Assembly (NCBI RefSeq): GCF_000328525.1
Contig: NC_019964.1
Location: 1,426,001 to 1,490,000, forward strand
Direction: 5' to 3'
Length of the DNA: 64,000 nucleotides
Source of the DNA: Halovivax ruber XH-70
Lineage (GTDB): Archaea; Halobacteriota; Halobacteria; Halobacteriales; Natrialbaceae
The notes beneath the pieces are model-generated. The model did no database searches. It was given only the letters and a program-made list of their open reading frames with translations, and was not told the origin of the DNA. Positions 24,717-27,680 of the stretch are shown here, in pieces (positions within the stretch are counted from its first letter, which is position 1; each line of letters opens with the position of its first letter). A program made the position numbers and the translations under genes.

Positions 24717-24828
24717 CTAGAGGTTCCCGTCTCGATGTGTGGGTCACTACCGTGATTTTCGACACCGCTCGGTTTCGACGTTCGATCGCATCGCTACTGG
24801 CACAATCGGCGATCTGATTTTCACATCT

Positions 24829-24849
24829 GGTATTCGGAGCCGAAATACC
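24829..24849. promoter_or_regulatory. imperfect inverted repeat before the actin-like gene
   Basis: GGTATTCGG and CCGAAATACC form 9-bp arms with one bulged A and a 2-base centre. The repeat ends 27 bases before the ATG at 24876, overlapping where the promoter should be. It could be a dimeric operator or chance; no repeat of it was noticed elsewhere in the window. Confidence 0.35.
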
Positions 24850-24875
24850 ATTATCGATCGGATACTGTCGCCGAC

Positions 24876-27680
24876 ATGGCAACTGGTATCGCCCTTTCTA
24901 CTGAGGAACTCCGGATCGCGCGTGACGGGTCGGACAGCCCAGTCGTCGACACGATTCCGGCAATCGCCTACCCACTCGACGAGGACGACGATGCGTCGGA
25001 GACGGAGGAACTGACGGTCGAGGCTTCGGGAACGACCTACGTCGTCGGCGCCCCTGCACGGGATCGATCGACGGCAGCCGGTGAAGAGCCGCTCGCAATT
25101 TTCGAACGTGGACTGCTCTCGACGGAACCGTACGCGAACCCGGCTATCGAGGCACTCATCACGGACGCACTTCCGGACGAATCGGAGACACGCCTCTCGT
25201 ATACCGTCCCCGGGACCATCGTCGACGCCGACACACCGACAGCGCAGCATCGAGACGCGATCGGTGAGGTATTCCGTACATTCGACGTCGATGCGACCCC
25301 TATCAGTACGGGGTACGCGGTCGTCGCCGATCAACTCGCCGACGAGACGTTCACGGGTGTGGGTATCGATATCGGGGCGGAACTCACCAGCGTCGCGCTG
25401 GTGTATTACGGGGTTCCAGTGCTCGCGTTTGCCCTTCCGAGGGGCCGCGACTGGCTCGTCGAAAACGCTGCGGGCGCAACTGGCCACAACCGATCACAGA
25501 TCGCTTCCCGACTCGAAGCATTCTCACTCGATCCGGACGCGAGTGGTGACATCGACCGCGCACTCGCACAGGCGTACGACGACCTCTGTGGATCTGTCGT
25601 CTCAGCGATCCGATCCGAGGCGGCAGCCGCCGACGTCGAACCGGGTGTCTCCGTTCCAGTCGCCCTCGCGGGAACTGGCGCCGTCGACGGCGTCGAATAC
25701 CTCTTCGGTGGCCGATTCGACGCGGCCGAGTTGCCGTTTTCGATTCGCGGGGTGCGACTGGCCGACGACCCAGCGGCGAGCGCTGCTCGCGGCGCGCTGA
25801 TCTCCGCCCAGGACGACGTCGACGACTACACCGCGGTTACGTGGTCGACGCACGACTCGGCTGAAGGCGACTCCGATCGGGACGACAAACAACTCACCGA
25901 CTTCGTCGACGCGGAAGAGACCCAGGAATCGTTCGATACGGACGTCTCACAGGATGACGTTGCGAACGACGCGATCGAACGGCTCTTCGACCGTCTCGGG
26001 ACGAGAGACGACGAACTCGCGGCGCTGCAGGAAACGACGACATCGCTCAGGGACGAACTGGAAACCGTCCGAGACGACCTTCACTCGCTCGACGCCGAAA
26101 CGGCGCGGACCGGGGCTGTCGATGCCGTCGATGACCGACTCGACGAGGTGGAGACGGCCCTCACGGCTGTCGACGACGCGATCGAAACGTGTGCGGACGC
26201 CGATCGACTCGAAACCATCGCGGAGACGGTGACCGAACTGTCGATGGAGACCGATACGCTGTCCGACCAACTGGACTCGCTCCGTGACGAGTACCAACGC
26301 GACCTCGACGAACTCCAGTCGGAACTGACGACAGACGTGGCGGACCTCGACGCGGAACTACGGGCGCGCGTCGACGAACTCGACTCGGAAGTGTCCACAC
26401 GCGTCGACGAACTCGACTCGACGCTCGCGGACGAACGCGCCGCTATGGCAGAGTGGGTCGACGAAATCGAACAAGAACGTGAGGACGCCGTCGAGCAACT
26501 CGAAGCACGGATTTCCGGCGTCGACGAGACACTCTCGGATCTCGACGACGAGCTGTCTGCCAGTATCGACGACTCGTTCGACGAGCTCGAATCGGCCCAG
26601 ACCGCGTCCGAGGAACGGGTGACCAACCGGATCGACGCGCTCGATTCGACGTGCGTGACGACCCAGGAGCACGTCGATTCTCTCGACGATGCCGTAGATG
26701 CGCTGGAGTCTGAATTCGAGGCAGTAGAATCGGTACTCGACGACACCGACTCGACCGTGGATTCGATCGGTTCCGATGTCGAGTCACTGCAATCGTTCGT
26801 CGAGTCGCTGAACGAGGAGGTCGAGTCCCTGGGATCTGCTGTCGAAGGACTGGAATCGGACGTCGGCTCCGTCGACGATCGAGTGTCGTCGCTGGAATCG
26901 AGATTCGACGGCGAACTCGAAGCGATCGAATCGTCGGTCTCCGCTGCAGAGACGACCGTGGACTCGCTGGCATCCGACGTCGAATCGCTCGAATCCACTG
27001 TGGCGGCGAACGAGACCGCGATTGCAGAACACACCGGAACGATCGCCACGATCGAATCGACACTCGACGAAGTGACGTCCGCCATCGAAGCCAATGGCGA
27101 ACGACTCGAGACACTCGAGGCCGACAGCGATGCTACTGACGAGTCGATCGAGACGCTCCGGCAGGACGTCGACGGGGTCGAAGACAGGCTCGATTCGATC
27201 GACCAGTCCGTGTCCGAACTCGATACGATGGCGCCTGAGTCGGCTGATCGAGCGGCCATCGACGACGTCGAAGGGCTAGCGGAGCGAGTGAGTACGATCG
27301 CGGCGCGTCTCGATGCGGTCGAATCGTCCGATTCGGAGTCGCTCGACGAACGCGTCGACGGACTCGAATCGAGGGTCGAGACGCTCGCCGACAACCAACC
27401 CGACGACGATCCACGAGACCGAATCGCCGAACTCGACCAGGCGGTTGCAGACCTCGCGCGGGCGGTCGAATCGCAGTCGTCGCAGGCGACGGAGGGGGAC
27501 TCCGCTCCCGACCGTCGAGTCGCAGCCAGTGGGGTCGGTGTGGGGGCGTTCGTCGCCGGTGGTGCGAGCGCAGGCGTCGTTTCGGGAGCGACCCTCACCG
27601 CGACCGGCGCCATCGAAATCGGTCTCGGGGCGATCGCCCTCGGCCTCGTCGGCCTGGTGGGGCTGTTCGTTACTCGCTAG
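24876..27680 (+). CDS. actin-like ATPase-fold protein with long coiled coil and C-terminal membrane anchor
   Basis: A 934-residue protein in three parts. Residues 1-310 look like the actin/MreB/FtsA/Hsp70 fold: GIALSTEELRIARDG is a weak phosphate-1 strand, GVGIDIGAELTSVALVYYGVP a good phosphate-2 motif, and VALAGTGAVDGVEYLF the adenosine motif. After an acidic linker, residues about 360-870 are almost continuous coiled coil rich in VESLES/VDELDS heptads. The last 50 residues form two Gly/Ala-rich hydrophobic segments (GVGAFVAGGASAGVVSG and IEIGLGAIALGLVGLVGLFV) ending FVTR. The expected form is a membrane-tethered filament or scaffold protein. Haloarchaea have an actin homologue, salactin; whether this is an orthologue cannot be decided here. 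The PRC-barrel gene follows by 62 bases. Confidence 0.75.
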   Translation: MATGIALSTEELRIARDGSDSPVVDTIPAIAYPLDEDDDASETEELTVEASGTTYVVGAPARDRSTAAGEEPLAIFERGLLSTEPYANPAIEALITDALPDESETRLSYTVPGTIVDADTPTAQHRDAIGEVFRTFDVDATPISTGYAVVADQLADETFTGVGIDIGAELTSVALVYYGVPVLAFALPRGRDWLVENAAGATGHNRSQIASRLEAFSLDPDASGDIDRALAQAYDDLCGSVVSAIRSEAAAADVEPGVSVPVALAGTGAVDGVEYLFGGRFDAAELPFSIRGVRLADDPAASAARGALISAQDDVDDYTAVTWSTHDSAEGDSDRDDKQLTDFVDAEETQESFDTDVSQDDVANDAIERLFDRLGTRDDELAALQETTTSLRDELETVRDDLHSLDAETARTGAVDAVDDRLDEVETALTAVDDAIETCADADRLETIAETVTELSMETDTLSDQLDSLRDEYQRDLDELQSELTTDVADLDAELRARVDELDSEVSTRVDELDSTLADERAAMAEWVDEIEQEREDAVEQLEARISGVDETLSDLDDELSASIDDSFDELESAQTASEERVTNRIDALDSTCVTTQEHVDSLDDAVDALESEFEAVESVLDDTDSTVDSIGSDVESLQSFVESLNEEVESLGSAVEGLESDVGSVDDRVSSLESRFDGELEAIESSVSAAETTVDSLASDVESLESTVAANETAIAEHTGTIATIESTLDEVTSAIEANGERLETLEADSDATDESIETLRQDVDGVEDRLDSIDQSVSELDTMAPESADRAAIDDVEGLAERVSTIAARLDAVESSDSESLDERVDGLESRVETLADNQPDDDPRDRIAELDQAVADLARAVESQSSQATEGDSAPDRRVAASGVGVGAFVAGGASAGVVSGATLTATGAIEIGLGAIALGLVGLVGLFVTR

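Follow-up and report, generated by a model that had tools for sequence, protein, structure and literature searches.

What does an actin-like domain do when it is carried at the end of a long rod with hydrophobic segments at its far end? The question is raised by one gene of Halovivax ruber XH-70 (3.22 Mb in a single contig), located within the 64,000-nucleotide stretch analysed here (the window). A first-pass annotation made from the letters alone had described its product as a nucleotide-switch head on a membrane-tethered coiled coil, suggestive of a new cytoskeletal or septum scaffold. The 934-aa ORF, starting at an ATG, is present in the window as claimed, and it is a real conserved gene rather than a chance frame because it has a Pfam match, full-length homologues in about 30 named genomes and the dN/dS values that follow. 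Against the orthologue of Halovivax asiaticus, the nearest named relative (head 93% identical), dN/dS was 0.19 in the head, 0.53 in the linker and rod and 0.34 in the tail. The product consists, in this order, of an actin-fold head, an acidic linker, a coiled coil of about 510 residues and a Gly-rich hydrophobic hairpin (Table 1). A 510-aa open frame also runs opposite the rod (26081-27613, minus strand); it is probably no gene but a shadow cast by the repetitive, high-GC coding of the coiled coil.

Table 1. Features of the rod-type volactin gene and its upstream region (window positions).
Feature	Position	Strand	Basis
TTTTCANNTCTGGTAYT with the bases after it, a conserved upstream element and probable dedicated regulatory site	24817..24855	+	alignment, exact-match search
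Rod-type volactin gene, 934 aa	24876..27680	+	ORF, Pfam match, homologues
Actin-fold (volactin) head, residues 1-313	24876..25814	+	PF25216, 339 bits; AF2 pLDDT 91.8; MreB/MamK matches
Phosphate-1 position, degenerate GIALSTEE (GLDIG in most relatives)	24885..24908	+	alignment of heads
Connect-1 site: Thr145, where MreB, MamK and single-domain volactin have the catalytic Glu	25308..25310	+	alignment of heads
Phosphate-2 position GVGIDIGAELTSV, with Glu169 where the second glycine would be	25356..25394	+	alignment of heads
Adenosine motif PVALAGTGAVDGVE, shorter by one residue than that of single-domain volactin	25656..25697	+	alignment of heads
Acidic linker, residues 314-358	25815..25949	+	sequence; low pLDDT, without secondary structure
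Coiled-coil rod, residues 359-868	25950..27479	+	periodicity; helix almost without breaks in a model of low confidence
Hydrophobic C-terminal hairpin rich in Gly (residues 886-934), predicted membrane anchor	27531..27677	+	hydropathy; alignment with invariant glycines

The head belongs to a known family. The Pfam profile Volactin (PF25216) matched residues 1-311 along profile positions 1-321 with 339 bits (cut-off 35, E = 3e-101). The score is that of a family member but the size is not, the single-domain proteins having about 326-375 aa and this one 934, with its rod and hairpin. The same genome also encodes, at a distance of about 46 kb and beyond the window, an ordinary volactin of 344 aa that is 34% identical to the head. 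Judged by sequence, the protein (hereafter rod-type) is a volactin paralogue within PF25216, neither a volactin orthologue nor a member of a new actin family. The AlphaFold2 model of the head, built with 28 rod-type heads, had a pLDDT of 91.8, and its top Foldseek matches were MreB and MamK, with E values from 4e-13; FtsA (7q6i) ranked below these two (TM 0.56). VIA-align placed the MamK filament 5ljv first (Z 26.6 with an rmsd of 3.4 Å over 288 residues), and BeeR, actins and MreB came next, with Z of 24-25. The modelled head thus has the actin-superfamily fold with domains I and II, as had been proposed for the N-terminal 310 or so residues. The MreB profile PF06723 did not match the rod-type gene, its only match in the genome being a DnaK-sized frame of 673 aa elsewhere. 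Since a PDB sequence search with the rod-type head profile found no actin, motif positions were placed by structure comparison and with the single-domain volactin profile.

The motifs were compared in an alignment of 98 heads, 42 from single-domain volactins and 56 rod-type. The connect-1 glutamate was found in all 42 of the former and in none of the latter. In profile alignment this residue falls on E140 of Caulobacter MreB, which is the Glu of its IDEP motif, and on the equivalent glutamate of MamK. MreB E140 positions the attacking water (PMC4051119), and changes of MamK E143 or D161 abolished ATPase activity and filament dynamics (PMC5059902). The 42 single-domain members also share the SxGAGxT phosphate-2 and the GG adenosine motifs, both missing in this form from the rod-type protein; SxGAGxT is actually eroded in nearly all rod-type heads. 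Phosphate-2, which the first-pass annotation had considered good, reads D165-I-G167-A-E169-L-T171 in the window protein, and the adenosine motif is one residue short against single-domain volactin. The phosphate-1 motif is lost in H. ruber, where GIALST replaces GLDxGT. Its Asp is kept by most rod-type heads; it is lost in H. ruber, H. asiaticus and one more Halovivax, and two other Halovivax keep it. Rules derived from MreB may not be fully transferable to volactins, because the phosphate-2 Asp position is a Ser in single-domain volactin itself. Of what characterizes an actin-superfamily ATPase, the fold is there and the intact nucleotide motifs and catalytic residue are not, so that the head has kept the fold and lost residues needed for ATP hydrolysis. 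Nucleotide binding may persist in most rod-type heads, since most retain the phosphate-1 Asp. On this census we rejected the head as a good ATPase, and the nucleotide switch proposed earlier is not supported, given the absence of the connect-1 Glu from 56 of 56 heads and of the phosphate-1 Asp from the window species.

From about residue 351 to 875, hydrophobic residues recur with best periods of 3.24-3.76 residues, a periodicity that neither head nor tail shows; it is heptad-like at 596-770 and hendecad-like at 456-595. It exceeded that of shuffled sequences in every 70-residue segment (p = 0.005, except one with p = 0.02), and by this measure the coiled coil of some 500 residues noticed at first sight is real. 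The full-length AF2 model was poor (pLDDT 57, pTM 0.29), with a near-continuous helix at 359-868 and an unreliable tail. If it forms one continuous coiled coil the rod would measure about 75 nm, and across the family rods would range from roughly 20 to 130 nm as estimated by length. Matches of the rod to SMC, Rad50, EzrA and other Pfam/NCBIfam entries were rejected as homology and attributed to generic coiled-coil similarity, and a match to DUF7310 fell below its cut-off. The two hydrophobic segments at the C-terminus were located by hydropathy at 887-905 and 915-933. Every rod-type protein whose gene is complete at the 3' end keeps them, and the alignment showed invariant glycines in the pattern AGGGGAGVVAGG. 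Because of this hydropathy and conservation we interpret the tail as a putative membrane hairpin, in line with the anchor predicted before. A search of 21 genomes with a profile of the hairpin gave no other convincing carrier.

Volactin was found over the cut-off in 86 of 145 sampled haloarchaeal genomes and the rod-type copy in 25, 22 of them among the 36 Natrialbaceae, with frames of 767-1344 aa. Every one of these 25 genomes, and all of nine further rod-type genomes, also had a single-domain volactin. The named carriers are nearly all Natrialbaceae, Halorubellus salinus being the outlier. Single-domain volactins, on the other hand, reach other classes of the phylum, always with 326-375 aa, fragments aside. 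About 14 of the 36 Natrialbaceae and Haloferax are without the rod-type gene, so that its product is not a general volactin anchor. In an unrooted tree of 31 rows the rod-type heads were on one side of a branch with support 100/97, and divergent copies from two other families fell inside the rod-type group, held together weakly (89/74). One duplication with fusion, and rapid divergence afterwards, would be the simplest reading of this tree, which as an unrooted one gives no date for the event.

Fast evolution of the heads is evident from the same 18 genomes, in which mean identity was 96% for single-domain volactin and 54% for rod-type heads, the latter being lower in 153 of 153 pairs. Subdomain IB has a fixed length of 51 residues in single-domain volactin and varies from 11 to 62 in rod-type heads. 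Within the latter, domain II is better kept than IB, and IIA is the best kept, a contrast to be taken as approximate since the boundaries were drawn by us from predicted secondary structure. This fast evolution with a variable IB fits a head freed from building symmetric filaments. Single-domain volactin presented irregularities of its own. One Natrialbaceae genome has it split by an insertion of about 9 kb (locus L165, genome G364, contig C54, 57721-67544); no rod-type copy was found there, though volactin has been reported as apparently essential in Haloferax. Another genome (G105) has two equally scoring single-domain volactins on different contigs and volactin fragments on a third (C3, C4 and C5).

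In the window the gene is flanked on one side by a divergent ATP-type PEPCK and by ribosomal proteins L11, L1 and L10; its other neighbour is a TrkA_N-DHH protein in convergent orientation. The gene is probably transcribed alone. It adjoins PEPCK and L11 in many Natrialbaceae, and in the rod-less Natrialbaceae checked no remnant was found within about 1.5 kb at the PEPCK locus. PEPCK was discarded as a functional partner; its orientation is divergent and the vicinity was taken as old synteny. Ahead of the gene, in most of the Natrialbaceae members, TTTTCANNTCTGGTAYT stands about 57 bp from the start codon and is part of an element in which 20 columns are invariant over 24 genomes. Searched without mismatches, it gave exactly one copy per genome in eight of eight, always before the rod-type gene, while a reversed-pattern control had no match. 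Nor was it found upstream of six single-domain volactin genes checked. The element is probably a dedicated regulatory site, either promoter or operator. An RNA hairpin was rejected, as the pairing read from the alignment does not hold across genera.

Volactin itself (HVO_2015, VolA) is a dynamic filament protein of Haloferax volcanii needed for the timely rod-to-disk transition; the tips of its filaments touch the membrane through unknown factors, and they assemble independently of the division site (PMC10869688), which leaves the septum role advanced in the first-pass annotation unsupported. From the fold, family, architecture, conservation, motif loss and co-occurrence computed here we infer dimerisation, membrane insertion, volactin binding and tethering. 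The rod-type protein would be a membrane-tethered pseudo-actin with a degenerate volactin paralogue as head, joined to the Gly-rich membrane hairpin by a rod that is probably dimeric. The head might bind volactin at the end of a filament, or enter the filament as a subunit that does not hydrolyse, and rod and hairpin would keep it near the membrane, to anchor, cap or nucleate filaments of the single-domain protein. We give this reading a probability of about one half. In its favour are the volactin family and actin fold of the head, the periodicity of the rod with the conserved hairpin, the loss of the connect-1 Glu at a site that is catalytic in MreB and MamK, and the constant company of single-domain volactin. 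This last is weak evidence for a partnership because single-domain volactin is near universal in Natrialbaceae, and against the tether speaks the lack of any conserved neighbour linking both genes. The more specific version, a membrane-anchored, catalytically dead actin acting as volactin tether or nucleating cap, with an anchor that evolved by duplicating the filament subunit, is put forward more tentatively. In Natrialbaceae the rod-type paralogue is a direct genetic candidate for the attachment of archaeal actin filaments to the membrane. In all 31 canonical loci examined (L002, 2575-3690, minus strand, and L004-L033), the gene immediately upstream of single-domain volactin codes for a multi-span membrane protein, about 300 aa long and with a charged cytoplasmic tail, which is a second candidate membrane partner of volactin.

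The strongest rival to the tether is a membrane scaffold independent of volactin, in which the head binds some other partner and the rod is a long spacer or part of a coiled-coil lattice under the membrane. The limited identity of the head to single-domain volactin (34%), its fast evolution, its own promoter element and a locus separate from that of single-domain volactin all speak for such a scaffold, but single-domain volactin is always present in the samples and the head retains the whole actin fold with a well conserved domain II, and we consider the scaffold less likely than the tether. Less probable still is an active, ATP-driven actin polymerising alone or copolymerising at the membrane, with the rod spacing a membrane-attached filament bundle. 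The fold is indeed intact and most members beyond the close relatives of the window species keep the phosphate-1 Asp, which is lost in that species itself, but the catalytic Glu is missing throughout, the phosphate-2 and adenosine motifs are eroded and IB varies in length. A decaying, functionless duplicate or a chance ORF, to which the divergence between genera and the absence of the gene without remnant at some PEPCK loci could point, is already disfavoured by selection (head dN/dS 0.19) and by the conservation of the frame, architecture, hairpin, upstream element and often the locus across many genera, and hardly deserves consideration.

Our literature search, which left most subscription journals and supplementary notes out of reach, found no publication on this architecture, apparently an undescribed variant of the known volactin family, though an earlier mention may exist. 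The suspicion that it differs from the known haloarchaeal actins was right. Volactin, with its orthologue in the H. ruber genome, has the same family and fold but consists of one domain (about 345 aa) that carries the connect-1 Glu, whereas the paralogue adds rod and membrane segment and lost that residue. Salactin of Halobacterium salinarum, also a haloarchaeal actin-fold protein, is reported as a separate system with dynamically unstable filaments from the poles; its published description gives it a canonical actin fold, plus an N-terminal tail that is charged and disordered, and mentions no coiled coil (PMC10746226). MreB and MamK are the closest solved folds, and in sequence profile MamK comes nearest to single-domain volactin, but both are active ATPases with the catalytic Glu and have neither fused rod nor C-terminal hairpin. 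As an analogy, with no homology claimed, RodZ is a membrane protein that links the MreB filament to the membrane; it binds MreB by a non-actin domain, whereas the binding end of the rod-type protein would be a degenerate actin. The eukaryotic actin-related proteins (Arps) are paralogues derived from actin whose part is to regulate filaments, not to build them. They are without coiled-coil rod or membrane hairpin and of independent origin, so again only an analogy, and if the tether reading is true actin-derived regulators would have arisen separately in archaea.
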